This document shows positions 8,127 to 34,199 of a DNA stretch of 64,000 nt, in pieces. The notes under the pieces are model-generated. The model saw only the letters and a program-made list of their open reading frames with translations. It was not told the DNA's origin and ran no database searches. This DNA is from Agarophyton chilense. Its lineage: Eukaryota; Rhodophyta; Florideophyceae; Gracilariales; Gracilariaceae. A program made the translations under genes and the position numbers. Numbering within the stretch: the stretch's first letter is position 1; every line of letters begins with the position of its first letter. The stretch covers positions 310,001 to 374,000 of the forward strand of contig JARGXX010000129.1 in the NCBI GenBank assembly GCA_030374765.1, written 5' to 3'.

Positions 8127-8147
8127 GGAATGGGAGGGAGGGAGAAG

Positions 8148-9547: not shown

Positions 9548-9796
9548 TTAACAATATATAAGTACCTCACCCATCTCTGGAATGAGCAGTACTTTTCGAA
9601 AATTAATACTATGCGTGAAGGTGTCTGACCCACCTCTTTCAGTTGTGTGAAGTACTGCATTTCCGACGAACGCAGCGCTCACAGTGCTTGGATCCCCAAA
9701 AACGATGGTCTTCTTTTCTACTTGTCGAATATCTCCGAGCTGCGAGAAATAGTTCACATTGGACTGCGGAGCACCGGAATTAAAAACGATCTCCAA
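9548..9796 (-). pseudogene. Copia family II protease, catalytic Asp replaced
   Basis: The frame reads like a Copia aspartic protease: VFNSGAPQSNVNYFSQL corresponds to the usual LDSGA.. loop with its downstream F..L, then VFGDPSTVSAAFVGNAVL to the G(D/N)GS....G.G.. strand, and INFRKVLLIPEMGEVLI to the ..NVLYVPGL..NLLS strand. The catalytic aspartate of DSG is Asn here, so the enzyme would be inactive. It lies left of the Gag relic on the same strand with correct Copia order and spacing. Integrase and RT are not recognisable further left. Confidence 0.7.
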
Positions 9797-9904
9797 TCAA
9801 TTTTTCTGATCCGAGCCGTGCGAAGTGAGAAGCGTTGAACGATGTGCGGTATCCTTATGAGTCCCCATAAAACCCCACTGCTGTGACTAGAAGTAGATTT
9901 GAAT

Positions 9905-10740: not shown

Positions 10741-10768
10741 ATTGAGACAAATCGGGAGCGCAGAGCAA

Positions 10769-10785
10769 GGACTGCGCTCATAACC
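10769..10785 (-). other. primer-binding site of Copia family II, half-tRNA type
   Basis: On the minus strand GGTTATGAGCGCAGTCC follows directly after the end of LTR similarity. As in element I, the first seven bases are the complement of CATAACC, the initiator-tRNA anticodon loop, pointing to internal tRNA-iMet priming. Confidence 0.55.
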
Positions 10786-11146
10786 AGATAAAATTCAGAA
10801 GAGGGTTGACTATTCACTTCTTCGTGTTTTAAACCACTCAGCTTTACAGTTACGTACTCTCAATAATAAAGATCCAGGAAGGATCAAACAGTCTATCCTA
10901 GTAGTTATAATTACACTCATTTGGACCAAAATGTTTCATAGAAATCAGCAAGAACTTATAAATGCATTTGTGCCAACAATCTCATTATCCAAATTGTAGA
11001 TAATTGAACAATGATCATGACAGTTCCTTTTCAGAACCCCAGTGCGTACTCCTGCATCTGTCCCAACACCCAGGAGGCTTTCAACCCAACGCTGACCATA
11101 TTCCAAGTAATTTCACGTGCTTCTAATCTTCGGTAAAGAAATAACA
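10786..11146 (-). repeat. 5' LTR of Copia family II
   Basis: This is the partner, in opposite orientation, of the solo LTR at 3722-4088. On the minus strand it starts TGTTATTTC, has a TATA-like CATTTATAAG in the middle and ends next to the primer site. The two copies differ by many substitutions and small indels, so both are old insertions. Confidence 0.7.
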
Positions 11147-14100
11147 CGGTTGCTGTCCTATAGAAGAGCTAGATTGCAGCACTAACGAGTCACGTCTCGT
11201 GAAAACGCACGAAGTGCAAGTGACAAAGGTCGTCTGAATGAAAGGGCGTAAGCCAGCACAGTAATCAAAATGTAATCCTATCTTAATTGTGCGAGTTCGA
11301 CATTTCCCCTTCTTGACCTTAGTAGCATGATAATAACGTAAAAAGAGTCATATCCACTTTGTAGTAGACAACAATCCTACGCCGTCATGAATTATTACGA
11401 GACAACTTCATCACCTTGTGGGGAGACATAGAGGGAGAAACCCCCAAAACCTATTTCGGATTTCAATTATAAACGAGTGATTTGTTCTATAAGCATTTAA
11501 ATGGCTGCAACCTGAATGTACTTGGTTTTTAATTCTGGCCTGCCACCTCTGATTTCGAAACGTCAGATCTATCAGAGATTGTTTTCCTAAAGAATGTCAA
11601 AAAGGTATACAGCTTTTGAATTGAAAGAGCGAATACTTTTCTCAATCTGACATATTTTAAGAAAAAGAGAAGATAGATTGTTTCCCAGTCAATTTTCAGC
11701 GGACTATAATCCAGATATAAAAAAGGGGGGGCTTTCTTTTCTAATTTATAATTGTCAAAGACTACAATATAACTTTTATTGTTTCTTGGAAAACTATGGT
11801 CTACAGATGGCTTTTTGTAATACACAAATGCAACTTGAATTGAACTTTCTAGATAGTTGTGGGACTTGATATGGAATCCCTTCCATTATCAGTATATTGT
11901 AAACGTCATATCCGTTTAAATTTAATTAGAAAACACAACGCGTGTGGCTACAACCCAAGGAGACACAAACAGTAGATATGCTCTCAAGAGTACAAGCCCA
12001 GGATAGAGCAAATAGAAGAAGTCGAAGAGAGACGTCAGAAAGAAGGAATGTAATGGGTAGAGAGTGCAAATTATAAAAAGATCAATATATATGTGGCAGA
12101 CAAAGGCCAAGGTATAAAGATGTGATGTAAAAAATGAAAAGTGTAAAGTCCTATACCACGATGTAAAGACTAAACGTGTTTATCGCGAACGATTTAGAAA
12201 ACAGTATTGTTCTCTTTTCTTACCCCGGCACGATGATGACAACTTCTATAATACACTGGGAGATTGTGGTCTTCGGGGAACTTGATATCGCATACACGGC
12301 ACCAAAAGTCATTGTTGTTGTAATGAGCGCTTCATAGTGTATTTTTGTGCCTACTACCGCCTTGGTTTAACTCTAATTGACGCTAGCTCTGCAATTTGAT
12401 GCTGCAAATGGCACAGCGCTTCAGGGAGAGTTTAGGAGATGAAAGAAAGTGGCGAAACTTCTCACGCTGAGTAAAGATTCGGATAACGTGGCGGCCACGC
12501 AAGTTGCTAAAGGGTTTGGTAATTGGTGAACCGTCGGTAAGGGACTTGGCTTCTTTGGTGATGCTGACGGCTTACACTCCCGAATTGGAATCTCGCACAG
12601 TTGAACATTCGCTCGAAGAAAATGCGCACGTTGGCACTATATGAAAGACAGACAAAATTTTGTACTTGCACACAATAACAAAACAGCAGTGAAAGTCACT
12701 TACTCTTGAATAAATGCAACATGGCCGTAGAGTGTGAACCCTACGTAGTATCATGCGGGTCTGTTAACAACAGGAGGTGCTAAACAGTCCCACGTGCGTG
12801 ACGGGTTCACAGAAAGGGTCGGCGCAGTCGCTGTAGAAAGAAACCCCAACCCCCAAGTAAAGGAAGAAAAAGAAGATAGTTGATAGGAAGTGAGGCAAAG
12901 ACTGTGCTAAAAGATAGTTTTGGTGCCAAAGGAGGGGGTGTGGTGAGCCGATTTTGTGGAGTTGACTTGACCAGAGTTTGTCGGAGCCGACCAAGGTCTG
13001 CTTAATAAAGACAATTTGGAGGAAGCTCGGCGCGGGATGTCGTGCGGCTTTCGGTCCGGTAGCGGCAAGCCTGTCCTAATTGCGCACCGTACTGGACTCA
13101 GAACGCATTTTCGTTTCGTACTGAATTTGTGGCTCTTAATTGGTTCTTTTTACAGCGTTACGTCTAAATAATAACTTACCTACCATTTTAGTTGAGTGAA
13201 TCTGTGAAACCGATGCTGATCGATTACTTTTGTATACAAGAAGTGGCACGCGTCTAACTCGTTCGTTTTTAAAGACTCACAAATATGTTAAACATGAAAA
13301 TTTTACATGTGATGGTTTTACGGCTTTCAAATGGTGTATGTGACTGTTGCGCATCAGTAGGGCCCCGCCCGAAATAGATGGAAACAAGTATCCAAGAAGG
13401 TCTTTAATGCTGGGGACATCAAAAATCTGATTAGAGGGTTTCTTTTTTTGGAACGTATAAATGGTGAATTGCTAGGGTTCTTTAGGCCTTCGTTCCTCTC
13501 CTATCATAAACTGTAGCTATTTAGTATATATATAACTCCACTTCTATATTAATCTCTGGCACGGAAGCAACGAGCCTTCAATCTTTGTTTCTGAACTGCT
13601 TTGACTGCCTCCACCAAGCTCTCACTGTATCTAGGATACCGCTTGCCCCAACAATAACTCTCCCGTGTCACAGAAAAGAATAATTTCAAACAAGGAATTG
13701 CAAACAGTTTTAGATGACTAATACCAATACGCTGATCGTGATAATGTATCTGAATGGTTTACCTAAAAGCTCTACAGGCTTTTAGAAGAGCATTTTTGAG
13801 CTTTCTAATACAATGCAGGTCATATTTGTGGTCATCAAATGCTTTTGCGGCCATAAATGAAACGTAATCAGTTTATTCACTCAAAAAAATGCCTTAAAAT
13901 AGTGCCTTTTAGATCTTCTCTGATGTATTGGCGACAAAAGAATCAGTCTCTACATCATTAGAATCAGAAAGGTAAAATCTCACTGAGAATGCGACAAAAA
14001 AGTTGGATTACCGATAGGCATACATAAGTGTCGTTAGCGACTCATATGTATGCATACGCTTACTTGCTTCTGTATATTTTTTGTGGCTTCCAATATATAG

Positions 14101-14340
14101 AATAGAAGCTCGACAAAAGTGCAATGCGTCTTCTTCCAAAACTGATTCTTCTCCTTTCTCCCGAGTGTACCATAACGATACAAACTTGCAAGCCATACTA
14201 AAGCTACAAGCTTAATAAAATATGACGGGACCAGCCTTCAAGCCGTGTCACAGTTAAAAGCTTAGTTTGACGTACTGTAGTGATACTTAGCCATATCCAA
14301 ATTACTTAAAGCTATTTTGACAAACTTCAACCTAAAATTT
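11147..14340. other. AT-rich DNA, no gene seen
   Basis: Three kilobases without a frame that carries a recognisable motif on either strand. Composition is AT-rich and patchy, as in the rest of the repeat zone. Old unrecognisable transposon DNA is the likeliest content. Confidence 0.4.
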
Positions 14341-15250
14341 GACACATTATAAACCCCTGAGAGCTCTGCTATCTCCTAATGAGTGAAAGCAAAGACTGGA
14401 AACCATAAGAAAACTTTTTAAAACTCTGATCTCTCGTAATTGTAGGACAAGGCTTGGAGCGGAGACACCACGAAGATGTTCGGGATCTTCCTCTCTTGAG
14501 AGACACGCCTTAGGCGGAGGAGACGCGTCCCAGCGGATCACAGAAACAGAGCCACTCTGGAAAGGCACGACGATGTCGGGTGTAAGACCGAGGCCAATCC
14601 GGCGGGATATACCTAGAGTGTTTAGGTGAGCACGGCACAGTCCGGGGTGTGACGAGTCCTAGGCGGAGCGGTATCACGGCGATTGTCGGAAAAAGAGCGA
14701 GGAAACACGCGTATGAGGTGGACGAGCGATGTGAGTGAGGCGGCCACCCACGAGAGCCAAAAAGGAGAACAAGAGGAAACGGGGGCGAACCCCTATACAG
14801 GGGCGAGACAACGACAAGTGTTGGTGATTAAATATGAACGCACGGTGGTGGTAGCACTCTGGTCGACAGAGGGGTGGATGAACTAACGTGTAACAGGCGC
14901 TCACGCAGTATGCGGTGAAGACGCGCCAAAGGCGAAAAGTTTAGAGCCAAGACTCCCTCCTTGGGTTCTCCCAAGAGGGTTTTTACTGGGGAGCAGTGCT
15001 CAACCTCCTAAGTAGTGTGGCACGTGGCCCCTGACAGTGGGCGCGCGCCCGAAAAATAGACACTAAATAGCGATAGCGTATCTAAATAAATACTAAAAAT
15101 TACTAAATAATACTAACCATTAGGTACAACCTGGGCCACGTGTGGCACGCCTCGCACTCGAGCGTCGGCATCCGTGCAGTCCACGTGTTCCACCATTGTG
15201 CACTTCCGGTCCTAACCGGCCGTCAGCACGCAATAGCGGTATAGCTTGTC
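14341..15250. other. GC-rich island, possible retroelement leader or LTR
   Basis: This block is visibly richer in G+C than its flanks and lacks a long credible frame. On the minus strand it shares short stretches with 34200-34860 on the plus strand, for example CGCCCCTGTAT followed by a G run, and TGGCTCTGTTTCTG against GGGCTCTGTCTCTG, in the same relative order. This suggests two copies of one repeat, perhaps the leader and Gag start of an LTR element, in opposite orientations. The similarity is weak and judged by eye. Confidence 0.3.
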
Positions 15251-15391
15251 ATAGCCCAAGTTATTCCTCAAGCGAGCGAAACCTCTAAGTCCTGCGAAGA
15301 AACCCCCATGAAGGGCATTGTCCTTCAGTAATACATATGGTAGCATCGATATTTCATCCCACGCCTTTGGAACACTCATCTCTTTTCATCA

Positions 15392-15895
15392 ATGAGGCCA
15401 GTAGTTTGTCAAGCAAAACTTGGAAAGCGCGTTGGTTCATCTTCCCATTTTTCGAACGCCAGAGTTGAGCCTGTCAACTCAAACCCAGTACGCAAGCTAG
15501 AACTTGGAGAGACCTCTCAAGCCATCGCTCCTTCACCTAGAGTTGTCGTCCACAATCCAACCAATTCAGTTTACTCACCATCTGTTGCCACCGCTGTTAA
15601 TACCTCAATCTCGATAGAAGAACGCCTGAACCCAGCTGCACTCATTCAGACGGCCAAGGAACAGCAGAATACAATGGAGCTTCTCGTTTCGAAAGTTGAA
15701 GCGATTCAAAACCAGATTGTTGCAAAGCTTGAATCTAAATCTCCTTCAGCCACTACCATAAGCCCAAGCACAAGTACGCTTTGGCCACCTACTCCAAATA
15801 ATTTCACCAGCTCTGCTCTTTCTCCGTTCAGCATTTTGAAATCGTCGATCTTCTCTTCGTACCATGGCTGCGACAGCGAGAAAACATCAGTATAA
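15392..15895 (+). CDS. hypothetical Ser/Thr/Pro-rich protein, 167 aa
   Basis: A 167-codon frame beginning ATGAGGCCAG. The N-terminal 80 residues are polar and unstructured. Residues about 85-115 (RLNPAALIQTAKEQQN and MELLVSKVEAIQNQIVAKLE) form a plausible amphipathic coiled coil, and the rest is Ser/Thr/Pro-rich. No family is recognised. It lies in the repeat zone, between the GC-rich island and the Tc1 relic, and could be the Gag N terminus of a retroelement or an orphan gene. Confidence 0.3.
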   Translation: MRPVVCQAKLGKRVGSSSHFSNARVEPVNSNPVRKLELGETSQAIAPSPRVVVHNPTNSVYSPSVATAVNTSISIEERLNPAALIQTAKEQQNTMELLVSKVEAIQNQIVAKLESKSPSATTISPSTSTLWPPTPNNFTSSALSPFSILKSSIFSSYHGCDSEKTSV

Positions 15896-16274
15896 ATTCG
15901 CTAGTTTATATCACGAATTCGGAAGGTCACTATCCTGTATCCTAGTACAGTCAGCCCAATTTTGAAGCATCAAAAATGTTTCTATCCGTAGCGCGCAATA
16001 CAAATCGGCAATACAATGATGACGACCACCCCCCAGCAGAGCAAGGCACCAGCAATGACTTCGTGTATTGTAGGCATCATGCTCTCCTTGTAGGACATAC
16101 AAATTTAAATATAGAAAACGAAGTTTACATATAGCGACGAACTTCAATAACATCAATTGCAGTCTAAAGAGCTAATAGTGCGCTTTTTTGAACCTTTAAC
16201 AGTATGAAAGAGCTTCATAGTCTATCCAAAGCCTGGTCACAGTCTCAAGAACCCCTTCTGTCCTGACTTCACGA

Positions 16275-17280
16275 AACTGCCTCGTGGTCTTCTTTTTACA
16301 GAAGTTGAAAAGGGTGAGATTGTAGCCCATGATTCCCATCTCACGTCGCATCTGCAAATTGCTGGTGAAATCGGGCAGCACCGTAAAAATGTGCAGCAAT
16401 TCTTAATGAAACCCAAGAAGTCTCAACAGCGTGAATAGAAACCGAGGAACCAGAACATCACCTAGAAAGACTAAACGCACCTTCATTCGAGACATCACTA
16501 TGAACCCATCGAGAGCGAATGAAGTACAGAAAAAGTACAGTCTCAAAAAAAAACCGTGCTCCGTATTCAACATATAGTACAGGAGGTGCCGTACCTAAAT
16601 TATAAGAACATGAAGTCTGGACCATATATGAAAGATGGTCACAAAAAGCGCCTTTTTGGGCGAAGGAAGAGCCCCGTTGGAACGCTGTGACATGGAAGAA
16701 AGTTCTATTTTTGGATGGAAAGAAATTCAAGCTTGATGGTCCGGATGGCCTAGCAACGTATTGGCATGATCTGCACAAAGAGCCTACTATTTTCTCTAAA
16801 AAAGTTCAAGGTGGGGAATCGCCAATGATTTGGGGTTGTGTTTCGTACTATGGAGCAGGATCACTAACTTTTTTTAATGGTAGAGTGAATATGGCTCAGT
16901 AAAATGAAGTATTGGAAAAGGATCTTCTACCCTACGGTAGTCAAACTCTAGGGGAAAACTGGACGCTTATGCACGAAGGGGCTAGTCCCCACAGAGCTAA
17001 TGTGACAAAACAGTGGTTAAAGGACCACAATGTAGACCTTTTGGACTGGCCGGCGAAGAGCCCAGACTTGAATGCTATAGAAAATGTCTCGGCCTAGCTT
17101 GCCAGGCATGTCTACAAAGATCCCAAGCAGTTCGAAATTGTGGAGGAACTGGCCAACACTGTAGAGTACGTGTCGAATTAATTGCCGGATTTACTCATTG
17201 AGAAACTCTACAAATCGATTTCATAGCATTTGATTACAGTTGTTGAGAAAACGCGTGGAACTAGGGGCTATTGAAAACTT
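16275..17280 (+). pseudogene. Tc1/mariner-type transposase relic
   Basis: Read on the plus strand the segment carries the whole Tc1/mariner plan in fragments. First is a helix-turn-helix part (EVEKGEIVAHDS, LQIAGEIGQHRKNVQQFL), then the DDE domain. VLFLDGKKFKLDGPDGLATY has the first D and the LDGPDG motif, SPMIWGCVSYYGAG the conserved W-G block. LMHEGASPHRANV stands where the second catalytic D (QQDNA.PH) belongs and has Glu instead. WPAKSPDLNAIEN is the third motif. A stop follows at the end of that motif (17095), and the C-terminal part (ARHVYKDPKQFEIVEEL) continues in the same frame, broken again by stops. Several frame changes lie between the two domains. I could not identify flanking inverted repeats or TA duplications. 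Confidence 0.85.
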
Positions 17281-18305
17281 TTAATCGACGTTTAATGAGT
17301 TATGCTGTCATAATATTTTGCTGAGATATATATACTACGTTTAATGTTTACCACACTTGCCCGCTTTGCTTGGGCCCCCCTAAATGCGATTTTATCTCGG
17401 GGAAGTAGTCAGAGAGAAGGAAAGGCAGCCGCACAACGGTTTTCGGCACAAGGCGAATGTTTTTGAAAGAGCTTCTATTTTTCTTTACGAGATCTCAAAA
17501 TTTTGTTCACTGTATCACAGCTACTCAGAAGATCCTAATTTCTGCTTTTCTGTTAATTTACAACGCAGATATCCTGTTTTCAAGGGTCACTCGTGACCCA
17601 GTTTCATTCTGCACTCTCGAAGGACTCCTGCACCACCCCCGCCTCTCATTCCAATTATCTGTCACTTCGCAACAACAGCCAAAAATATGTCAGGTGTCCG
17701 TCAAGATTGCAGAGCAAAAAACGTAGCAAACTCACCAGTTCATCATAATGAGGGCCGCCGAAATAGGGTTCCCATGTTAGCAACCAGAAGAAGACCAAAC
17801 ACACCAAGCCAACGTAGCGCGCCGCTTACCTCCAAATCGCAGCCCACTCACCCACTCACTCTCCACCCCACGCCGCATCACCCATCGCTCCCCTCACGCT
17901 TCGCCCTCTCGAGAATGACCACAAACAGATTCAAGGCCCCAGATCAACATAGACCACGTACATCCCAATCGCAAGCTGGTCAACACTTTCCCCCCAGCAC
18001 CGCATCCCATCACGTAACCCTCCACTCGCGCTCCGCCCGGTCGCACATAAACATACGCCAAGCCAAGACTGGTGAAGTGCACGCGGAAACGTACACAATA
18101 CTGCTTCTCACGCACCTCGAAAAGACGGAAAGGCCACCAGGTCCTGCCGACATCATATCACAAGATCTAAAGAGTCCACTACCACTCACCCAGTCACTAG
18201 GAAGACTCCACAACTTTACTCACAATCAACAAAAGTATACGCCGCCGCTCAAAAAATATACAACTTTGAATATTTTCATTCCAACCCACTTTCTAAGTCC
18301 CATAC
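17281..18305. other. 5' flank of element A, no gene seen
   Basis: From about 17.7 kb the plus strand turns C/T-rich, which marks the left part of element A. The frame 17687-18370 is proline/serine/threonine-rich without a motif and looks like a by-product of this composition. I looked for a terminal inverted repeat matching the right flank near 29.3 kb and found none I would defend. Confidence 0.35.
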
Positions 18306-21300
18306 ATGCCGTGTTTGTCGTGCCGCACGACTTGTTCGCGTCTCTGCCGTGTCTCTGGCGCATCAATTGATCTTGGTGAGTACGCGTGATAAGTTTAAAA
18401 TCTCCCCACCGTCCTTGTCCTACATCTTCCTCACCCCCAGCCTGTATATATTCTCTCCCTCCCACATCCTCCTACATCTTTCTCACCTCCCCGATTTACA
18501 TTCCCAGATCGCGCGCAGGGACCCTCCATACCATGCAGCTTTGTCGCTTCCCAAGGTGCACCTTCCAGACAAAAGGCCGCACCTCACACTAGCGCCGGTG
18601 ATGCCAATGCACCGCCCGCAACCCCTTCCTCGACACCACCCCGAAGGATGGCATTCAATTCCCACTGCGCACGAAGCGCCCACGCGTCCAGACCGCAAAC
18701 ACCCGCTCCGTCCGGGTCTCAAACCGCCTTTCCGACAACGTTCCGCTGGTAGAAGAATACGAGTATGATACCAGCCAGCTCGCTCTGGCCATACGCTCCA
18801 CAGACGCCGCCCACTTTATCTATGCTTCTCTTGGCTTACCTTCTCCCAGCCCTCGCCCACCCGTGAAGCTCGATCCCATCGTCTCCTACAACTCATCCAT
18901 CGGCACCAAGCTCGGCAATCTCAAAGCTGAAGAACTCATTACCCTCCTCAGGGACCACGACTACTTCCAAACACTCATCCAACAGGTAACCTCCGTCTCC
19001 CACTGCCTTCACTTTCATTTTAAACTATTGGAGGACCCTGTCGGCTCCATCGGCTTCAAATCCACAACCGTTCGTCACTATCCCTCAAACATCACTGCAA
19101 CTCTCTGCCTCAAAAACCCCGTCGATGTCCTTCTCCAGCAACTTCGCTACGCCTCTCGCGCAAACACCTTTTTTTACCCCGTCAGACAATGTTATTCAGA
19201 TGGTTTTCCTGCACACGCTCCTCCCATGGTTTCACAACTCGACACATGTGTCTATCCGGACCTTAAAAACCACATCCTCCACTCTCAAAACCCAGATGTT
19301 ATTCGGCACACCGCCGACATCACTGGAAAAGAATGTTTCATCGGATTCATCCCGCTCTATTCAAAGAAGTCGTACATCTCCCTCAAAAGCTCCTCTATCA
19401 CCTCCTACCCCATTCACATCACCCTTCTCAACTTTTCAGACTCTTTCCGCCGCCATTGCATCTCCCGCAACTACACCTTCCTCTGCTACTTCCCCACGTC
19501 GTTCGACGTCCCTTCCTCCCCATCCGACGAGGACTTTATCGAAGGCCACTCCTTTTTCTCAGCCATCAGTCGCATCAACGGAATGGAACTCATCCAAGAA
19601 TCTCTACAAACCATCCTCGAACCCCTCACTGCAGTGTCCCTCAAGGGTATCCCTTTCCGTGATGAAGAACAGGTCATCGAATAGGGCCACCCAATCATCG
19701 CAAACTATGCTGAAGACATCCCAGAAGCAAATGACATCCTCGGCATCGTACAAGGCACAAAACCATCCATGCCCTGCCACAGATGCCTCACACCTCGCTC
19801 CGACCTCAACCTCCACCTCACTCCTCTATCCCCTCGAAACGCTTCCCACACCTATCACCTCAGAACAGCACACGACGCTCTTCTCAAAGATGCCAAAGAT
19901 GCCGAACAACTTCGCCGACCGCGCGCAGCAAGAACTCTCAGAGACCAAGCAGCATCTCTCCTCCGCACAAACTTCTCTCCGCGTACAACTCCTTCTTCGA
20001 AACACACCTCCTTCTTAGCACATCCCCACTCCTCTTCCCATACTCTATCTTTTCCTTCGAACCACTTTACAACTTCCATCTCGGTATTTTCAAATTCGTC
20101 AAACTGGCAACCATCGAACGCTTGAAGTCCGACAGCCTTTTCACCACTGTGGCGTCCTCCAACACCTCCTCGAAATCATTAACATCCAATCGAAGCTCCC
20201 TTCTCACCCACGCAAACAACATCCTCGCAGATATCGAAGCCGACTTCTCCGCACTTCGACTGCACATCTACTTCTTTACAGCAGACAAGACCAAATCCCT
20301 AAACATGTTCTTCACAACGGACGGCATCGAAGGTATGCTCGAGGCAAATGACTATCGCGCTGTCGACATGGTCTTCCCCTTCAAAGATGCCTTCTTCGAC
20401 CGTTGCTGCGGTGAAGTTGACACCGCCTCCATCATACCCATCTTCATGGCATACGCAGACCTCTTCACCACTGCACTGCACCACAACACCACCTCAGAAT
20501 AGGGAGACTAACGACTTTGCGCCCTCCAGGAACTCATCAATCACTTCAAGTCTCTCTGCGTCTCCGTCCTCGTCCCTTTGCAAGCTTTTTACTTCGGAAT
20601 ACTCAAGTTTCACCTTCTCGACCATATCATTTCTGACATCGAACTATACGGAGGTCTTCAATTCACTGACGCCGGCGTCTACGAACATGCACAACTCCTC
20701 TTCAAAAACCACTATCGCCGCACATTCCGAAGATCTTCAACCGCTCCCAGAGAAACAGTCCACGCAGTCAAACTCACGGAAGACTTCCGAAACTCATCCG
20801 ACATTCCCCTCCACCTTTTCTCCTTCTCAAACTCCTCCTCCCGTCGTTCTCGAAGGCTTTCCATGGTCAGCGACGGTACCACCGTCCTCTTCCGCGATAT
20901 CACCAACGGAAAGAATTACCTCCGTGCAACCCAAAACTGCTCTAATGCCTTTCTCTCAAACATCTTCACCTCTTTTACCTGCTCTTTAATCACCCAAATT
21001 TCACTCGACGCCATTTAACCCTTTCACGACTTGTGCCTCGAAGCTCTCGGACTCTCTTTCTCTTTCCTGTCTCTCTCCTCCCTTCCCTTCTCCCTGGTCC
21101 ACTCCGCCTTCGTCCACAGAGGGTTCACCCCCTCCTTGCAAGACATATACAAAACACTCAACTGCATCCGTTTCAGAGAACCCCCAGTCCCCGTCATACA
21201 GAGCATATTAGCCACATCCGCCTCAGGTCCTTCCCAACTTCCAAAGATCTCCCACATTTTCTTCTCCGGTACTCCACCATTTAACTGCAAGTTTCCCACT

Positions 21301-21727
21301 GTTTAGGTCTGCAAGCACCTCGCCCTTCTTCGGTTTCCCAAAAAGATGAAGATCCTGACAAATGCAAATACGCTTTCGTCCGCTTCTTCGAACTCACAAC
21401 ACCCCTCGATGACGTGGGTGAAACCCTAAAGTGCATCACCCTCCGTTGGGCAACAGACGACTAACAGGACCACACCATCCTCCCCGCTGGAAACAGAATG
21501 ACAAGCTCTGCCTTTTATGTCGCACCCTCGTTCGGTCTTGTTTCCTTCTCCGCCATCATCAGTTCCGTCCATCTTGTTCGCCAGAACAACCCATCACGCC
21601 CTTTCTCCCCGCCTCTCCCCTGGCATCAACATCGCTTCTATATCAACAGATTCTACCTCGAACCACGAGCGAGAGCTTATATCTCTACAAAAGATTCAAC
21701 TTTAAGCAAATGAAACCCATATTCTGA
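18306..21727 (+). pseudogene. Plavaka/CACTA-like transposase A, broken
   Basis: The parts read in order. Exon 1 (18306-18375) encodes a short Cys-rich start (MPCLSCRTTCSRLC). After a 132-base intron, residues follow in one frame, shift once near 18640, and run from about 18645 through 19684 and beyond. Family blocks are FIGFIPLYSKKSYISL, then YPIHITLLNFSDSFRR with YTFLCYFPTSF, GTKPSMPCHRCLTPRSD (CxxC), a frame change near 19975, LYNFHLGIFKFVK (the LHN.HLGI block), KFHLLDHIISDIELYGG with YEHAQLLFKNHYRRTFRR, and a C-terminal YAFVRFFELT and FYINRFY segment in a third frame. Stops interrupt at 19682, 20500, 20509 and 21016. The block order matches the transposase of element B and fungal Plavaka elements. 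Not functional as it stands. Confidence 0.7.
18376..18507 (+). other. predicted spliceosomal intron in transposase A
   Basis: CTTG^GTGAGT at the 5' end and TTTACATTCCCAG at the 3' end are near-consensus splice sites. The 132 bases are C/T-rich and contain stops in the transposase frame; removing them joins the Cys-rich start with the downstream frame. Confidence 0.55.
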
Positions 21728-21738
21728 TAATAAAGTTA

Positions 21739-24350
21739 TCACTCATCAACAATATCTTGTTTACCTCCGCCTTCCACCCCGTCCCCCTCCCTCTTCTTCC
21801 CTTCCTCTTTCGCCCACCACATTTCTTTCTCATCCACTAGCAACTCCCTAAAATCGCGATCTTCAGGCATACAACGTCCGAAGTAGCAATTAAATACACA
21901 AACGAGATAAGTAATCATATCCTCCAGAAACACCTCGTACCGAACACCCGGGTAAAGCAGTGCGTTCAACGACATCCAACACGCACCAGTCCCTTCACGT
22001 TCCACATTTCCCAGCACTTCAGTCGGGTTCTCAACCTTCACACTATGTTTCACAAGCGCCTCTCCATATTTCTCTTCCACCTTCCTTCTTGCTGCCCATA
22101 AGATATCCTCCACAGCAACCGGCAGATGATTCGCATACAGTTTCGAAAACAGCATCTGTCACTTCCCTTCTCTACCCAAAACCTCATCCAACGCCTCTAC
22201 CACAGATGCAATCCATGCATCCAATCGGACTAGATGCATCACACTTCCATCCACATACTGTGTCTCCCCTTCCCTTCACGGTTGCTCCACATCGTACCCC
22301 ATAAACAATATCACCACCTCCATACTCAATCCGTTCTGTAAGTACAAGTCACCCGGGTCATCCGCATTCTTTGTCGAGGTCACATCATACCCTGCATAAC
22401 ATATGTTTTGCAGTTTGTCCAACCTCCACGCAGACATGACTGGCTCCCAATTCGTGTCTTTCGGCAACAACTTCTCCGGAGCCTTCATCTTCTGCTCGTC
22501 ATACAACACACTCAGTTCTTTATCATCCTCGTTTGTCGGTTTCCTAACAAGTAGAGTAAACCCCAGACCCTGAAGTATTCTATCCCTCGCATTCTGTTTC
22601 GGCACCCCCACAGCATCACAGAGAGCCTGTTTCATCCGCTTCTTCAAACACGTATCCCTTCTCAACCCCTCTTCACACTACGTTTTCGTCCCCATCCCTG
22701 CAATCTTTCTCCATATCGGATTCTAAAAATCTATCCGCACCACATGCAACAACATCTCATCACTCCCCCCTCAAATGACGTAGTGTAGGCCTTCGGTCCT
22801 CGCGAATGTCTTCCTATTGCCAGCTCCATAGGGTCCAAAGGCACCATCTCCTTTTCATCTATTCTCAGAATAATCTGATTTCTTCCCACCCTCACTTCCT
22901 TTGCCCTGTTCGACCAGACTCGCTCCGGTTCCCTCTTTCCGAAGCACAATTCACTCGTCTCCTTCTTCGCATAACGCAGTATGGTCTCGTACACTCTCGA
23001 TACTACTCCAATAACTCGCATGTCCACTACAATTTCGTACCGTTTCCGACCCCCCTTCACTTCTTCGCCACCCACTTGTCCTGGTCGACCACGAAGAATC
23101 TCTTGCAATGACGTTAGAAGCATGTTCTTTTTCCTAAGTTCGCCCTCCAGCCTTTTCATCTCCCTGTGTTCGAGTGTTAAGCTTAGTTGCAAACGTGTGT
23201 TGTCATCCCTTGCCCTTTTCAGTTCCCCCTTCATGTCTCCAAGCTTAGCAAACAGCTGATTCCGCCCCATAAACTTCGATTCACCATACTCCATCTCCTT
23301 GTGTTAGCTTTCCTTCCCCGGGCGAATTGCATCCTCATCCTTTTTCTTCTCATCCCCTCCACTTTCCCAGAGTCCCTCTCATTTTTAAACCTCCCCTCCC
23401 TTCCTTCACTCTGTCACACTCTGGTTTTTCCGAGTTCTCCCCGCGCACACTCGGTCGTTTGACCCCTCAGCGTCTCCGTGTTCGAAACTCCTCACTGCAT
23501 GATCCGGAGTCGGCCGGAAAGAAGACCGTTCCATTGATCTGCCTGCCGGGACTATGCGAATCTGTACTCCCTTCCTTCTAAAAACGACTCCTTTTCCCTT
23601 AGGCTTCGTCTCTACACGTTCCTCCACGTTCACACTTTGTACGGACCATGAAAAACGAACTTGGCCTTTCTTCCGTCCCCTATTCTCACCTCTTCCTGGA
23701 AGTATTTCGTCATTTGCTTCTTCCAAGACGTGTCATTTTGAGAGAGCAGTGGCTTTGCGTACTTCATTCATTCCTGAACCATCCTCTTCTGCCTCACTGG
23801 CGTATCCTCTGTCATGGAAGTTAGTGCAATGGGAACGACTAAACTGTCGCCTTTTTGCTTCTCTCTCGATCTCATACTCTTCGTCATTAGCTAAGGTTCG
23901 AATGTCGTGAACGCCCCAATTAGGAGTTACCAGACCTCTCGGCTTTCTTTCGTTCATCCTCACCACCTGGCTCACAGTACCTTCCGTTGCAGACGACGAA
24001 CGCCCTTTCTGCTCCTTTTCTTTCAATGTTCCCACGATGGCACTTTGATGCCGCCTCCCCACTACTTGTAACCCGGATCGCGGCGGGCCTCTTATCCCAT
24101 CCCCGTCCCGGCCTTCACCCTTGGTCGTACCGCTTCCTGTTTCACGGTTTGCACCTTCCGTCTCCCCAACACTCCTTCCGTCCATTCTTTTCCAACGCTT
24201 TTTTCCCATTCTGCAAAACCCAACCCGACTTAGAGTACTTGGGAGACGAGTGGGAAGAGTGACTCGGTGAGGGGACTTCGTGAAAAGAATATAACCTTCA
24301 GACATCTGTTTTCGAAAAAAACAATTTTCGAAAATCCCGCCAGGAAACAT
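21739..24350 (-). pseudogene. element A unknown gene 2 (coiled-coil protein), many in-frame stops
   Basis: From 24350 to about 22731 the coding sense stays in one frame although stops interrupt it (about 23733, 23406 and three between 23295 and 23405). It then switches frame near 22730 and goes on to 21739 with two more stops (22276 and about 22158). The first third is basic and low-complexity. At 23294 a coiled coil begins (FAKLGDMKGELKRARDDNTR, then LEHREMKRLEGELRKKN). The last third is globular (LPKDTNWEPVMSAWRLDKL, LSMEVVILFMGYD, CWMSLNALLYPGVRYEVFLE), with a lysine-rich end. I do not recognise the family. It is tail-to-tail with transposase A, 11 bases apart, which supports a common element. 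Coding sense is purine-rich. Confidence 0.55.
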
Positions 24351-24576
24351 GAACTGAACACAAACTTAGCCTACAATGGAAGAATCTGAAACCGTGTTTC
24401 GTATCTTTTTTTTTCTCCTTTCTTACTCACATTCCACAGAATCTGAGACTTTACGTATCCATGTATCGTAGACTTCGCCTTTTTCAGTTGACCTGCACTT
24501 CGAAGCCGTTTTTCACAGGTTAAAGGATTATTGGAAGCTTTACAACTAAGTATGGTAGGTACAGAACATTTAATCC

Positions 24577-25128
24577 TCATTGTTCTGCGCTATTACTACA
24601 GGTAAGAAGACCTCGAAACCTGTTTCTGAAAATATAATCCTTCCCGTAACGTAGAAACAGCTCTTCTCCTACCATTTTATCGCGTGTTGCTCTCACACTT
24701 CGTAGAGTGTAGCCCACAATCTTCGGCTTCGACAACGTAGACGTCCCCGGAGGGATTTCCACACTCGCTGTCCTCCATTTGCTGGGGTATCCTTCGGCAA
24801 AGTCTTTCTCCTCGTCGCCATCCAGATAAAGTGGTTCATTAATGTACCGTACCATACAAAACGGTGCAGAATCAGTCTATACCCTTGCTGCCTTCTTTCC
24901 TCCATCACAAGTCGGCAGTTGTTGAAAAACCACACCATTGGCTACCACTTCCATGTAAAACTTGAAGAATCGCGAAACCGTAGCTCCCATGAGTCCCACT
25001 CCATACATAATGTGATTCTGCGTACGTATACTAATGTCATGATACACGATAGTTGCATAAAAATGTGCAACAGCCTCGCCTTTCGTGAACTTCCATGCAT
25101 GAAACAGCCCAAGCCCCTCCCAGCCCAT
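24577..25128 (-). pseudogene. SET-domain methyltransferase-like gene in element A, one in-frame stop
   Basis: SET domains transfer methyl groups from S-adenosylmethionine to lysines, usually in histones. The start MGWEGLGLFHAWKFTKGEAV matches the SET opening (G.GLFA...F.KGE.I, then Y). Around codon 94 RYINEP stands at the place of the R(F/Y)INH motif, and near codon 154 GEELFLRYGKDYIF matches the closing GEEL..DYG..Y motif, with a pre-motif VRATRDK. The SAM-binding and substrate-tyrosine elements are thus at both ends and spacing is normal for a compact SET domain. A single TAG (24877-24879, codon 84) interrupts the frame between the halves; no frameshift is present. An upstream TAA fixes the start. 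It is divergent from unknown gene 3. It could be a captured host gene or an original part of the element. Confidence 0.65.
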
Positions 25129-25347
25129 CCTCCTGTCCTCTTACACGTATTGGCATTCATTCACAATCTCTTACCCACCAGCAATGATGCGAAGATGCGG
25201 TGAGAGGAAACGATAGAGAAGGTGTGCAAAGTATGATCGCAGACCTTTCTCCCTTACGCGAATACATTGAGATCATGAACCCGAAATGAAGGGAATCGTT
25301 CAAACGCGAAGAAAACCTCGAGCAGCGTTCGTTCCCCTTCTCTGCGC

Positions 25348-28300
25348 ATGTTTCTGTTCGCGACCGTCGGGGACAGGTCCAGCAATTTAGTGACCTTTAT
25401 TGAACGGCTACAAACCCAACGGGCGTTTATTTCAGTTGTCAGCGCGCCCTGCTTTTGGCGACCGTCTGCGAGAGGTTCCGTGAAGCTTCAAGCGATAATC
25501 TATCGAAGGGTTCACCTGATGCTGCGCAACAACCCAAACGCGGAGAACAGGAGGCTCAGTCGGAGGTCTCGGAATCCGAAGCCGCCTGTTACGGCTTTTA
25601 GTAGGAACGACGCAATGCCTACAACGCGCAGCGGTGCAACGCAGGCGAAAAAGGTAGGAACCCCAACATGGAAGCCGAAACCTGACGGAGAGGTGCCTCT
25701 GTTGGTGGCCACGCCGAAAAATGGGAAGATGGTCGTGGGGATCGCACTTGTGAGGGATGCGGTTGATGCCACCGGCGGGTTTACGAAAGATTTGGTGAGA
25801 GAGTTGAATGGTCACAAACTGGTCGGGAAGGCGAAGGAGAAACTCGTGGTGGTATGGAAGGTGTTGATTCAGAATGGGAAAGATATGGATTACCCGTATA
25901 CGTTCAAAACTACAGATACGGTGCCGAGACCCCCGGGAGACATGGAGAGCTACTCTTTCTATTGCTTGGACGTGAACATGATGAGTCATTATGGTGACCG
26001 ATCGGCCAATTTTTCACTGAATCCGCCATCCGCTCTGTCTGCACCACCAGCCAAGAACCCTTCCGCCAAGAAGGTGAAGGTTCACAGCCCAGCGAAGGCG
26101 AGGAGAATATCTGAGCTTCTTAGCTCGAGCGACGACGAGGAAGATCAGGTACACCTCTCATCTTTGCGTCCTAGCTTCAAGACGACGAGCACCATCGGGT
26201 AGGCCAAGTTTATGACATTGAGAGATACGATCAAAGGACGCATCTCGACTCCGTCGAAGCCCCCCCTGAATCCCGCCGGAGGCAGTGGGCTAAAAGCATT
26301 ACACACAAAAATCCCAGAGAGAGCTGTTATTCGGCCACCAAAGGCTTCGGCGATTGCTTCCAGTACTGGTGGCGACGGTGGTGAGAGCCAGGTAGCGTAT
26401 CAGGCTGAAGTGGCAGAAGCTTTTGTAGAGGGGGGACACAGCGCCCTGATGCAAGTGAAATCCACACAGCCGCCTGTTGAGGGCGGAGAGGGCAGTGAAG
26501 ATGAAGAGGTGCAGTTCGTGGGATCGCGGGTATTGGCTACGGAGTCTAAGGTTGACTTGTTCGATAAGGGGGATGAGCTGTATTTCGATGATATCGACGA
26601 AAGTCTACTGGACTCAGAGTTTAACATGAACGACTACACATACGAAACGTATGTCGTGGACATTCGCCTGATTAAGATTCTTGGAGAACGGTGTTCGAGA
26701 GTTCAACGAGGACCACAAGAAAGAAGTAGAGGCGCAAATGGAGCTCTAATGAATATTGGGGTCTGTTGGAAACGTGAGTGTCACGATTCTGGGTCCGAAG
26801 AGGGCAGGAGACAAATGGTTCGATGGGAATCGAATCGTCGTGGAGTGTTGTTTGGTGGACGGCCTACATCGCTTGATTCTGTACCTAGAGCGCATGGAGG
26901 GGAATGCCAAAGTCCGAGATATCCTGCGCCAGCTGGCTGTCTTGTTCCGAAGAAGGAAAGATGGGCAGCCCATGACCATAGGTGATGTGATATCGATTGG
27001 AAATGCCCTCAACGATACGGTTGCTGCGGCATGGGTGATGTCATTTCGAGACAAACTGCATTCCAGTCAGTCGTTTATGCGAACTCTTCAGAATGTGGAC
27101 TTGAAGGAAGTGACAGGCACATTGTTTCGTGGTGCATTGTTGAAGAGCAAGGTCAAAGGGTCAACAGAAGCAAGGAATATGTTGCACTTTGCGGACCTCG
27201 GTTTGAGAACGTACCTAGACAAGGACTTTATGACCAGGAGGAACGAAATGTGCTTGAAGTACCCCGAGCTGGAGATTGCGCACTTTTCGAGTGAGACGTT
27301 CTTCAAACTGAGAGAGAACACTACGGCGTTGGCGCTGGAAATCCTGCATGAGCGCTATGACGTTTGACGGGCATCGAGAGGGACTCCGATGGGCAGCTTT
27401 CAGGACATGAGTTTGCATTTCTTCAGATGTTGCAAGCAGACCTATGAGCTGTGTGAAAATGTGTAAAAGATGAACAACATAGGGCTTCCGAACGTGTTCA
27501 ACACGCAACTGGAGATAGAAACCCTAACGATTACCGTCCGCGAATATGTCACCAGACATACCGCACGACTGGAAAGGGCGGTCATTTCTGATATGTGGGA
27601 AGAAAAGATATCGAAGAGCCTCCCGCATCTGAAGAAGAAGCTGGAAACAACGTTTGATGTGGACTTTCAACCTTCTGCTCCGGCCCCTATTCCTTTCACT
27701 GCATCTTCTATCCGTGTAACTCTTCCAACCCCGCAATGGCAAAGCGATGTTCAAGAGATTATTGAAAGCTTGGGACCGAGGTGGAGTAAGGAGAAGGCTC
27801 AGAAGAACATGAAACAAGGTGGAGCGGCAGCACTATTATCTAAAGAAACCACACTTGAGAAGCGGAAAAGGAAGGTGCCCAAAGCAACCGAAGAGGAGAA
27901 CACCGAGGAAGCGGTGGAGGAACATGTGCCGAAAAAAAAGAAAATGGGCGACGTTCCTGACTTTGTCATCTACATCCTGCGGCAAAAGCAAAGACGTGAG
28001 TTTGGTGACTTCCTTAGACAGAATAAATTAATTTTCTTAAGTGACGAAGAAGACTATGACGAAGACGATCCGAACGATCATAACAAGAAGAAATTCGATG
28101 ATGAAGTTCCTCAGATTCTCCCAGAATGGTTGGTGAAGTTCGAGGAAGATAGTGAAGTGGGTAACTCGGATTGGGTGAAGTACGTGAAAATGTTCCCCAG
28201 AAGGTGGCCACCAGCAACTGAGAATGTCAATAAAGGCATGTACGCCTGGATGGACAGGACTCACCTTTGGAAGAACCATCGTGCCCACTTGCTTCGCTCG

Positions 28301-28747
28301 AACGATGTACGGGGTTTTCATGATGCATTTTTCTTGCGTGGAGCGTTCCAGAAGCTCTACAACGTATGGAAACAGGAGAGGAAAGCGTCTGGAGAGCTTG
28401 TCGCTGTACTGAAGGAATATGACCGTATCAGACTCTGGGAGCGGGCCATAAGCAAGGACTACTATGCAATGGTGTACTTTGCGAAGAAAACTGGCGAACT
28501 GAAAAAGCGTGAATTCTGTGTGTTGAAGGGGTTTGGAGTGGATGACGGGATCTAAAACCAGGTCTATTTGTGGAGCGAATTGATGGATGGTGATGGGAGT
28601 GAGGAGCTGCTTGGGTTCTTCGACGAGTACTTCTATCGTCAAGAACATCTTCGAGAAGCAGAGAATCGTCAGTGCTTAAACCCATTTTCAATACGGGGGA
28701 GGCAGCTGTTGAAGCAGGCCGACTCACAGGGTCCACCAGGTATATGA
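25348..28747 (+). pseudogene. element A unknown gene 3, about 1,100 codons, four stops and one frameshift
   Basis: A likely start is ATG at 25615 (MPTTRSGATQ), although the frame is open from 25348. The sense stays in one frame to about 26740, shifts once, then remains in one frame to 28747. It is interrupted by TAG at 26200, TGA at 27365, TAA at 27464 and TAA at 28553. After a basic start comes a domain of about 120 residues (LLVATPKNGKMVVGIALVRD). It is followed by an acidic serine patch (SELLSSSDDEED), a helical middle (LHRLILYLERMEGNAKVRDI, FRDKLHSSQSFM), a Lys-rich nuclear-signal-like part (KRKRKVPK, VPKKKKMG) and a C-terminal region with WMDRTHLWKNHRAHLLRSND. No family is recognised. 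Coding sense is purine-rich, as in gene 2. Confidence 0.55.
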
Positions 28748-29552
28748 CGACGCGGAGGGGAATTGCGGACGAGAAATGGAGAGAGCGGCGGAGACTCGCT
28801 GGGTGGTGAAGTGGCGTGCTATGTTGGATGCGCGCATGGGTCAGATATGTGTGTGATTGGGATTGGAAGACAATAGGGAGGCGGAGCATAAGATGTAGGC
28901 ACCGAAGACTAGAGGTAGAGTGCTGTGTACTGGTCGAGGCTGCCCTCGGCAGGAGCTGCATACCGGCTTTCAGACGCTGACAATCCTGTAGAAGCTGAGA
29001 GTTGGGCGTTGGTAGGGAAAGGTTGATAAGAAAGAGGATAAGAGAGGAGAAGAGTTTATGGAGGGTACTACAAAAAGTGGGGAGTCGTTTGAAGTAAATG
29101 AGAACAGGATTGATGATAAGATAGATATTGTGGACGTGAGAAAAAGAGGTTGAAGAAGAGAGAAGGGAGTATACTGGACGACTTTTACGAGTTGCCATTT
29201 TCGGGAAGGGAAACGCAACCTTCGCTCAAATGATCGTTGTTGTAGGAGGTATCGTGATGATATAAATCGATGTGGGGGGGGGGGTTTGAGCCACACCCCT
29301 GTTATTCACATCTAGCGTCTGTCATCCAAACATCCATAGTAAAGTAGCATCGTCTTGCGCATTCGTTTCACATCCATAATTTACAGAGTTTAGTTCTAGA
29401 AAATGAAACGAAGTCTAGCTGGCTCTATAAAAAATCAACAAAAATTGCGTCTGCATCTGCCATGGGTCATTTTTCGCAGATTTTTTGCCGTATATCTTAC
29501 CGTATATTATACAAGCTGCTAATACTAGCTCTCCGAAAACAAAGACGAAATG
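28748..29552. other. purine-rich right flank of element A, no gene seen
   Basis: The plus strand is G/A-rich to about 29.2 kb and ends in an 11-G run at 29274-29284; then composition returns to the AT-rich background. This break may be the right end of element A. The long minus-strand frame here (29198 to 28428) is low-complexity and overlaps gene 3 in antisense, so I do not call it. Confidence 0.35.
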
Positions 29553-31620: not shown

Positions 31621-32641
31621 TCAATCATAGAGCTGCTTCCTGACCGATGCCCGACGTCTTTCGATGGTTCGCTTCAACTCCATCGGACGTTTCCTCGCTT
31701 TGAACTGTTCAACGCTCATAATGCTGAGGATAGATCGCCCGCGGTCGCGATCAGCGTGAACGGATGAGCCTGCTTTAAGCTGCAGCTGAAGACTCTCGTC
31801 AACAGTGCGGGCTCGCGCGAGCTGTTTGCGGCGTTCCGAATCTCTTCGTAGGACATCTGTATCATGCTTTGCGCGTGCCATATCCATTGCAGTTTCTGAC
31901 TCCAATACGGAAACACTAGTTGTATCTACGTAGCAAAAGTCCATAATCTGAACATCCGAACCTAAAACCATTTCCTTGTAGTTTATGCATCGCTTTTGAA
32001 ACGATGCTCCCAGTTCCGCTACCGACAGCGTCCTGTGTAACGTAGCATTTGCAGATAGTGGTACAAAAAGGAATCACTTAGGAGCGACGGTCCAAAACTG
32101 CCCGACGAAAGCTAGCCTTAATAACCTCTCTTGTAAATGAAGCATAGAACGCCTTGCGAAGCAGCGCCATAAATAAAAACATACCAATGTTAGTATAAGA
32201 ATTACTGAGGGTAACTTCCGTGCTAACCTTGTTCAGATGCGACTTAAAAGAAGAAAATATCAAAGCATTTATCGGCTGTGACTTTCCAGTACTATGTGCT
32301 GGGAGTGCAAATGAAATTATGATGTTCCTGTACGACAACTCAAGAACAGAAAGTGATATATGCACTCTATATGCATGGAACACTAGCAAAAGCTTGCGAA
32401 AACCAGCGAATAGATCCTGAACATAGTCCATAGAACGTTTAGCCCAAGCCCTAAAATTAACCGGTGCAACACCACCGGTCTCTGCATGAGTCGAAATCAC
32501 AGCCCCTATTGATAAGCAGACCATTGGAGTCTTTTGTACTGCAAGACCATTTCGGATGACGGTGCGATAAGGAATTATTGTTTCTTTTAAAACCACAAGA
32601 AGGGGTCCAATATCTCCAGATCCACTGAAAACAGTCATCAT
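31621..32641 (-). pseudogene. pogo-like (DDE) transposase relic
   Basis: The minus-strand frame 32641-32078 matches the DDE domain of pogo/Tigger-type transposases: PVNFRAWAKRSMDYV, then HAYRVHISLSVLELSYRNII where LLLDGHSSH...VLEL...NNI stands in the family, then FALPAHSTGKSQPINALIFS where LPPHTTH.LQPLDVGVF stands, then SFKSHLNKV. The catalytic D of the DGH motif and the final D are replaced, so the enzyme is dead. After a gap with a frame change, 31971-31621 gives an acidic/basic helical tail (ARAKHDTDVLRRDSERRKQL) fitting the C terminus. The DNA-binding N terminus should lie to the right (32.65-33.0 kb), but I cannot read it. Confidence 0.6.
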
Positions 32642-34199
32642 AGTAACACTTTCCTTGTAGCCATATTAGTTGAGTGCCATGTCCCGCGCTCCACCTCTCG
32701 GGAAAAGACGCCGCAATGAGAACGCCCCTGTGATGTCCTTGTCCGGTGGGCCACCAACTTCTTCGATATTGAAAATACGTTAAGCATCAATTATACTCTC
32801 CTCCACAAGCTTCTCCACTTTTTCGAAATGATGCGTCAACTTTTTGCATTTATTGCTTTGAAACGCTTTCTTTCCTGCCAAAGTAGACGCGCGAAGGACA
32901 TTTTTTCCTTGTGATGTTTTCAAAAGCTTCGCAATATATAATTTGAAATGTTAGTGTGATGAAATGGTAGAGCAAGTTGTCGGTCGGGAGGAAGATTTGC
33001 CCAAAAAGTTTGGATGGCTTCGCAAAGGTGATGGTTTGTAAGGAGTATGACGCATTTTTCGAAGCACATCAAGAACGATATAATTCATTGTTCTTCTTGG
33101 TCAAGAAGGCCACCCCGACGTTCCAATTTTTCGTTGCGGAATGTTTTCTTTCAGTAGTGAAGTGTAGCTCGATGAATACCAAATTCATTCGAAGTAAGCC
33201 GGTAGGAACAATTCCCTGCTAATGAATGGAGTGTCTGGGTTATGGCCAATCCACGGGACTGGTTTGCTACGACAGGCATTGTTTTGATACCTGCAGAGGA
33301 GTGGTTCTATTCTGATGAAGACTGTTGAGGTCAACCTATCGATGTGAGTAATTTGCATCTGGTTGCAAGGTCTGTCAGTTGAATCTTTTGAAAAGCCTGC
33401 CGTATCTGGTTTTGAAGGTGCTGAATCCAAAACTATGGTTAACTTTTCAATCTACATCGCAAATTTCAGGATTTCACGTGTACAGCCATGTACAACGTTT
33501 TCGCCATGTCTGCGCCGGGAGTAACGACCGACGCCAGGACTCCGCATGGCATTCCACGTCTGGCGCCATGGCCAATTGTACAGGACTCTCCCCACGGGTA
33601 AGCCACGAATAGGCCCCTACAATCGCCTTGGAGGCGGGTTGGAATGATGTGACATCAGCGCGGAGAGGCATTAAAGGCATCGAACAAGAAAAGCTGATGG
33701 TCCGTCTCACGGGCTATTCGGATCGGTTCTCACAAGCAAATGGCCCGCTCAGGTTTAAATGGCACCAAATGGTCTCGTAGTTTACATTGATCGCACTGCA
33801 TCGCTCCTTTATGATTACGTCAATATAAAATAAATCGCTGCGCTTTCCAGAAGTTTGTGTAGAGCAACGCCCAGTTAGGGGATACTTGAAGATGCAACTC
33901 ATAGAATGAGGGTTGAACCCTCCGAGGGTTATGACTATGATCCCCTCTAAGGTGTGCTGAGGTGGCCCAATTTTCTGGTTAGAGTTCGCCTATGAAGAGA
34001 AGATTCGGATGGCCCATGGTTGGATTGGCCCCGTGGTACACGTGGCTTAATTTCGGCACCGATTTTCGGATATATTTGTTAGAACGTTGGACTTTTGGGC
34101 CCTGACTGTGGGATCTCCACGTGTAAGGCCCTGAGCAGGTGTGCGCTGCTGTAATTAGTAGAGTTTAGTTAGCGGGCCCTACTTAGGGAGACCAGATCT
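32642..34199. other. repeat-zone DNA, no gene seen
   Basis: Short plus-strand frames around 33.4-33.9 kb read on through several stops with scattered tryptophans and might be old transposon coding sequence, but I cannot assign them. The segment 33.9-34.2 kb has LTR-like GC-rich character without a partner I can align. Confidence 0.3.

Follow-up and report, generated by a model that had tools for sequence, protein, structure and literature searches.

Does a transposase gene that stands beside a SET methyltransferase-like gene and two further long genes (genes 2 and 3) belong with them in one mobile element, and what would a chromatin-modifying gene do there? This question is raised by a 64,000-nucleotide stretch of the genome of the red alga Agarophyton chilense (C128:310001–374000 of an 80-Mb, 135-contig assembly), referred to below as the window. 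The initial annotation, made from the letters of the window alone, had grouped the four genes into a single Plavaka-like DNA transposon. Placement by tblastn, blastn and open reading frames (ORFs) bears out that the four lie side by side. Their order recurs in a sister family elsewhere in the genome, confirming that the transposase, the SET gene, and genes 2 and 3 belong to one element.

Searched at the protein level, the genome yielded another 109 SET matches, of which many lie in long open frames. In one stretch of the sister family, L039, a gene 3-like frame (−) is followed by a 1043-aa frame (+), a gene 2-like frame of 585 aa (+) and a transposase (−), which, flipped, is the order of the window. 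The L039 transposase is 44 to 53% identical, in the parts compared, to that of c61, a full-length copy described below, and the sister-family transposase is ~52% identical to the window type.

To estimate linkage, we used 113 SET matches (4 window-type, 62 dispersed and 34 contig-end; 13 low-scoring fragments were left out), 77 gene 2 matches (75 of 345 candidates scored; 2 second pieces left out) and, from 140 gene 3 matches, 58 sister-family and 20 contig-end ones, the rest being second pieces or belonging to the window type or its close relatives. Gene 2 lies within 9 kb of SET in 59 of the 62 dispersed places, always downstream and on the same strand; gene 3 does so in 52, always upstream and on the opposite strand. 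Both are near SET in 50 places, gene 2 being absent within 9 kb in 3 and gene 3 in 10. When the transposase was taken as the starting point (10 sister-type matches at 51 to 56% identity, from 47 scored of 561 candidates), SET was located within 12 kb in 7 of the 10. An exact, inward-facing variant of the terminal inverted repeat (TIR) lies no more than 20 kb upstream in 40 of the 62 SET places. Since there are 88 exact sites in 79.8 Mb, only ~0.7 such places would be expected by chance. On C25, another TIR site close to a SET place is off the expected position. On the counts at the 62 dispersed places, we reject the view that the SET gene was captured as a chance passenger.

The transposase of the window is broken. 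It occupies 18380..21701 (+), as judged by tblastn with the c61 transposase (72 to 76% aa identity), whose matches fall at 18380–20026 and 19975–21312 (72 to 75%) and at 21339–21701 (76%, the C-terminal frame). Seven stops lie in 18380–21312, and the frame changes once near 19975–20026. The assignment to Plavaka holds: the c61 and sister-family transposases match the Pfam Plavaka family PF18759 with 73.7 and 82.2 bits, respectively, and the window fragment scores 20.7 bits, under the cut-off of 26.3. The initial annotation had placed Plavaka with KDZ elements; according to the excerpted text of PMC12730594, it belongs to the CACTA-like CMCT group. Members of the CMCT (CACTA/EnSpm-like) clade have, between the second D and the last E, the motifs C(2)C and H(3-4)H. 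A CxxC (CHRC) can be seen in the transposase frame; a search made without structural alignment did not locate the H motif. Nonsynonymous (dN) and synonymous (dS) divergence between the window and c61 transposases is 0.145 and 0.229, and the window branch is old. The dN/dS ratio of 0.26 to 0.45 for the window and c107 transposases in the deep comparison with L039, where dS is near saturation, points to past constraint on the transposase.

To delimit the element, ten transposase copies were taken with their flanks and compared with the window (these close relatives are called c-type below). Similarity to genomic copies begins at window position 17641, which corresponds by blastn to coordinate 1673 of copy c21, ~1.5 kb inside the left TIR of that copy, and ends with the right TIR at 29526..29547 (−; TAGCTCTCCGAAAACAAAGACG, family sequence CGTCTGTGTTYTCGGAAAGC). 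The recognizable extent of the decayed Plavaka-type element is thus 17641..29547 (+), wider than the 18306–28747 first proposed. The right subterminal region, 29013..29547 (+), is common to copies c107 and c128b, and its last ~260 bp also to c13, c21, c61, c75a and c75b. When the left parts of four copies were compared with window positions 1–18500 at an E value of 0.01, there were short internal matches only. The left ~1.5 kb of the window element is, by this comparison, missing or unrecognizable, and only the right TIR is present.

Alignment of copies, which the initial annotation had recommended for defining the termini, was therefore successful for the right end of the window and for both ends of five other copies (c21, c61, c75a, c75b and c128b), but not for the left end of the window. 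The full-length copies c21 (19.4 kb) and c61 (18.9 kb) are 99% identical and have abrupt inverted-repeat ends; in the c21 repeat, 24 of 25 bp agree. Inverted repeats of ~25 bp, beginning CGTCTGTG, bound the element, and its termini read CGTCTG..CAGACG. Identical 2-bp flanks surround four of the five two-ended copies, the fifth having a degraded end; with these few and short sites, the element probably makes 2-bp target duplications. With up to three mismatches allowed, the TIR pattern was located 245 times in forward and 243 times in reverse orientation across the genome, and the reversed control not once. In this pattern search, five TIR pairs have near-equal spacing, with units of 10.99 to 11.00 kb (C68:3638636/3649608, C71:753139/764106, C79:653829/664803, C80:1427209/1438180 and C105:1189916/1200887), which suggests a homogeneous, probably young subfamily.

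The sequence of window positions 20000–21000 occurs in at least 40 genome places, itself included, the others being 82 to 88% identical (best 40 of 209 candidates). Copy c107 shares with the window the right half from position 20413 on, with identical gene order and an identical end. Window positions 25220–26080 are matched in inverted orientation in 9 of the 10 c-type copies (blastn). Such rearrangement relative to the c-type copies might indicate that the genes are adjoining unrelated repeats or products of a segmental duplication and not one element. The conservation of the right half, order and end in c107, together with the TIRs and constant orientation of the sister family, refutes this alternative, to which we assign a negligible chance. 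We are highly confident that the window holds one decayed copy of a Plavaka-type transposon.

What the initial annotation called a SET gene is a SET-like stretch at 24616..25167 (−) with one TAG and one TAA, 65% identical to the copy in c71. It matches residues 869–1032 of the 1043-aa L039 protein (39.6% over 164 aa, E = 2e−28), so that only the C-terminal remnant of a larger gene is present. In our reading, this gene is a DNA N6-adenine methyltransferase–SET gene, the methyltransferase part of which is missing from the window. It survives partly in c107, where a methylase-like motif lies upstream and a match to L039 residues 465–584 is found. The upstream pieces of c107 and c13 had no match in a Pfam scan, and the methylase reading of the c107 piece, at first based on the motif, was then borne out by the intact relatives. 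The c71 remnant matches Pfam SET below the cut-off (17.6 bits, E = 0.0053), and the SET scan of c107 gave no match. At the DNA level, window positions 24050–25200 occur at only four genome places, all four of them inside elements: the window; c107, which agrees with it in order and right end; c71, where SET directly follows the transposase; and c13, where SET adjoins the right end.

The complete form of the gene is preserved in the sister family. The 1043-aa protein matches N6_N4_Mtase (66.9 bits) and, at the C terminus, SET (23.4 bits, with 25.9 bits for the protein of stretch L040 and a cut-off of 22.4), both above the Pfam cut-offs. The methylase part has the features of a beta-class N6-adenine methyltransferase, i.e., a DPPY motif before the F/AxG S-adenosylmethionine motif, both conserved, the N6_N4_Mtase profile and the fold, and is of the CcrM-like beta class. 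The SET motifs N..V and GEEL..DYG are kept, with DYI for DYG in the homologous protein P0014 and EEEV for GEEL in L040. Methylase chains only, and no SET chain, were among the structure matches listed. When SET chains are considered, the family profile matches EZH2 best, weakly, and also KMT2C and SETD8; these matches do not indicate the direction of the mark. At least 40 gene copies are 98 to 100% identical over nearly the whole 3129 bp (best 40 of 70 candidates), which argues that the sister family moved recently. The matched part is free of stops in 13 of 44 scored protein matches (best 44 of 232 candidates), and 11 of these 13 keep the 1043-aa frame.

Homologs of the fusion were sought with several queries. 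Residues 440–1043 retrieved at least 49 homologous proteins from 5811 candidates, of which 34 were aligned. The one organism named among them is Chondrus crispus, whose protein P0014 is annotated as “adenine specific DNA methyltransferase” and has a helical N terminus (residues 1–366); a transposon origin of P0014 is suggested, short of proof. The c107 methyltransferase–SET remnant found no homolog at E ≤ 0.001 among 959 candidates, and a search with the 1043-aa protein by words from its first 500 residues found none among the 7995 scored. In viral contigs searched with the family alignment, all matches listed (at least 80 loci kept; 150 relatives) fell within residues 433–733, the methylase part, and none covered the SET part.

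Gene 2 is also broken. It is recognizable at 21823..23273 (−) by tblastn (37 to 38% aa identity to the 585-aa ORF at L039:6074–7831), with five stops across the two pieces compared; a Pfam scan of the 585-aa relative revealed no family over the cut-off. An upstream part, 23274..24025 (−), is defined by blastn homology to c-type elements. In 9 of the 10 c-type copies, the match to the window extends to base 24025, and past this point, these copies continue with the gene 2 N terminus, a portion that the window has lost there. The SET stretch stands in its place. Gene 3 (25279..28555, +) is split over ORFs in several frames, and introns are possible; intact relatives have a 1247-aa frame. Its match in the genome search, C128:335708–336061, is window 25708–26061. 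The N-terminal part of gene 3 is homologous to L039:618–1217(−) and is a paralog, in the opposite direction, of the c-type gene 2 N-terminal part. Genes 2 and 3 share an N-terminal module in the window’s branch. Both versions of the module are present in copy c128b. There, at 7887–8456 and 9101–9635 (G000:C128:448757+), the paralogous start modules of the two genes lie head to head, as if an inverted duplication about a common promoter had given rise to them.

Other branches of the lineage carry other genes. In place of the methylase-SET gene, c61 has matches to Rieske, PaO and TsaD (tRNA threonylcarbamoyl-transferase) at L016:4997–6304 and L015:8607–9434, and c21 and c75a share most of this DNA, which we regard as different cargo within the same element lineage. 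A second methylase-SET family, found by the SET search (1141/1130 aa and relatives), occupies 34 places, many copies having identical scores (G000:C10:2505, C10:14542, C95:2983751 and 31 more; L040:2157–5582; stretch c95 at 6956–12583, L019/L020). At least 18 of the 34 lie within 25 kb of a contig end, and 16 have a gene 3-like frame (up to 1415 aa) on the opposite strand, no more than 14 kb upstream. When scanned in two halves, a 1876-aa frame downstream of the methylase-SET gene in c95 matched OrsD and DEAD/helicase-C. About 8 kb away, c95 also holds a c-type transposase copy, whose homology to other copies stops before the 1876-aa frame. One simple scan of c95 detected no telomere repeats; the contig-end family is possibly a subtelomeric element. 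Since the gene 3-like and methylase-SET pair is found near contig ends and, in c95, beside the OrsD-DEAD helicase gene, this cassette may pass from one mobile element to another or may have been taken up at chromosome ends.

Several observations weigh against the reading set out below, in which the element uses the methylase-SET protein for its own ends. In the sister family, SET is absent from the 12 kb around 3 of the 10 sampled transposase places, the TIR at the transposase side was not located, and one or more stops interrupt the matched part in 31 of the 44 scored copies (best 44 of 232 candidates). L040, a contig-end stretch with the 1141-aa frame, has no transposase or gene 2 match, so that the enzyme can persist outside a recognizable Plavaka unit. 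The SET-remnant copies show dN/dS of 0.61 to 0.96 in five pairs, which suggests decay after insertion. Finally, the window SET sequence was found in none of the 10 close transposase relatives compared and was therefore not needed for the spread of the window transposase branch. The initial annotation held that the grouping would fail if other transposase copies never had the SET gene or genes 2 and 3 beside them; this is half the case, the window SET sequence being absent at the DNA level from the 10 close relatives and the arrangement being regular in the sister family. The absence of SET from these relatives, like the Rieske, PaO and TsaD genes of c61, would fit SET and genes 2 and 3 being host fragments picked up by chance, as the c61-type cargo seems to be. 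Yet the sister family, with a transposase ~52% identical, carries all four genes, with intact frames, in an unchanged order and orientation. It is not believable that chance would have assembled this set on two occasions, and we consider this explanation very improbable.

How would such an element work? By analogy with its family, the transposase would move the unit via its TIRs. Motifs of both catalytic centers are kept in the fusion protein, and, in the plain reading, it would write N6-methyladenine (6mA) on DNA and methylate a lysine, placing both marks over the element’s own copies and their histones. As the methylase-SET gene travels with the transposase in a kept order, the element is the most likely beneficiary, and, on balance, a chromatin role that serves the element seems the better supposition. 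A different use of the methylase would be replication or strand licensing, in which adenine methylation favors hemimethylated, newly replicated copies for transposition. Bacterial CcrM-like beta-class enzymes act on hemimethylated DNA, and bacterial Dam licenses Tn10/IS50 transposition on such DNA, so the beta class of the enzyme would suit this role; the SET domain, however, is left unexplained, and we judge licensing improbable.

If the fusion serves the element, its marks would most likely be permissive and leave the transposase gene open to expression. The survey of eukaryotes in PMC12695648, as excerpted, links 6mA to permissive, H3K4me3-marked chromatin, via MT-A70 enzymes and not the CcrM-like class. 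This association is why we tentatively favor a permissive mark, at somewhat less than even odds. The opposite proposal is self-restraint, with the fusion writing repressive marks (6mA with an H3K27- or H3K9-type mark) on the copies and limiting their number, comparable to the autoregulation of other transposons. The weak preference of the profile for EZH2 and the persistence of many intact-family copies (at least 40 near full-length), compatible with a tolerated element, are in line with it. The profile, however, matches KMT2C (H3K4) and SETD8 (H4K20) as well and is therefore indecisive, and the link of 6mA to permissive chromatin in the same excerpts, though via MT-A70 enzymes, argues the other way; self-restraint is rather unlikely. 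Taken as a whole, a decayed Plavaka copy in the window together with an element-serving methyltransferase–SET chromatin writer in the sister family is the likely explanation. It is conceivable, with more doubt than attaches to the permissive direction, that a single mobile polypeptide methylates both DNA adenine and histone lysine on element chromatin, so linking a DNA mark of bacterial type with a eukaryotic histone mark, and forms, with genes 2 and 3, a portable chromatin-control cassette.

The common strand composition first ascribed to all four genes holds for the transposase, gene 2 and SET (negative GC skew at 18 to 25 kb) and not for gene 3 (positive at 25 to 29 kb). Elsewhere in the window, positions 1–3000 have a GC skew of +0.33 to +0.36, opposite in sign to that at 18 to 25 kb, and an AT skew of about −0.3, both ending abruptly. 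A second, distant Plavaka-like transposase match is located at 39612–40964 (−; 24% identity over 506 columns, E = 2e−9), and a DDE_1 transposase fragment at 32078–32665 (−; 29 bits, Pfam cut-off 22).

In Bostrychia, giant Plavaka elements are reportedly behind the growth of the genome (Petroll et al. 2025). Nine light-harvesting-protein matches in the genome, all over the cut-off, agree with a photosynthetic red algal host, for which the fungal comparison of the initial annotation is off; they speak against a fungal host. The best of the nine is closest to a chain of PDB 7y5e (E = 1.1e−68), a red-algal complex. The papers cited below by accession number are represented by excerpts. Fungal Plavaka elements, including the TET/JBP-bearing PlavakaB (Kojima 2025, PMC12730594), are alike in transposase, probably in the short (2 bp) target duplication, and in having an epigenetic accessory enzyme, which is TET/JBP there and an adenine-methylase–SET fusion here; no TET/JBP match was found among the ORFs scanned with Pfam, which were part of all frames. 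Fungal PlavakaA ends in TGT..ACA and PlavakaB in CATCA..TGATG, whereas the algal element has CGTCTG..CAGACG and is therefore filed under neither. Giant accessory-gene elements and ParB–DNA methylase proteins are described in algal, including red algal, transposons (PMC12477816, citing Petroll 2025), and the giant EnSpm/Plavaka elements of red algae resemble ours in host, size and several accessory genes. Sola1-1_Ec32 of Ectocarpus (PMC12477816) is also a giant DNA transposon, and its N4/N6-type DNA methylase lies on the strand opposite the transposase, but it belongs to another transposase superfamily; its 1104-aa protein joins a ParB-like part to the DNA methyltransferase, with no SET reported in the excerpt. 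Phytophthora HarbingerS and MuDR elements (PMC12730594) share the SET histone-methyltransferase gene but belong to other superfamilies, and the excerpt mentions no DNA methylase fusion. The Plavaka giant repeats of Amoebidium (PMC11244446) have gene matches in red algae or dinoflagellates and, unlike our element, are reported to include tyrosine recombinases. Bdelloid N4CMT (PMC8885841; PDB 8s9m), which has a chromodomain and marks transposons, belongs to the host and is not transposon-borne. In Asparagopsis, “adenine-specific DNA methyltransferase” and “site-specific DNA-methyltransferase” genes are drawn on the contig with the bromoform gene cluster (PMC12115072).

Giant accessory-gene elements and DNA-methylase accessories in algae, red algae included, and SET genes in other transposons have thus already been reported; what is unusual is that a Plavaka element carries a predicted DNA and histone writer in fused form. 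No such fusion on a Plavaka element was met in the titles, abstract openings and excerpts covered on Plavaka, red-algal transposons, and SET with adenine methyltransferase, which do not include Petroll et al. 2025. If the fusion is active, it would join 6mA and histone methylation in one natural polypeptide chain, carried by a recently spread selfish element. It would also make it possible to test, in one organism, whether bacterial-type 6mA has a role in eukaryotic chromatin outside MT-A70 enzymes and whether transposons escape or impose silencing by writing, not erasing, marks.

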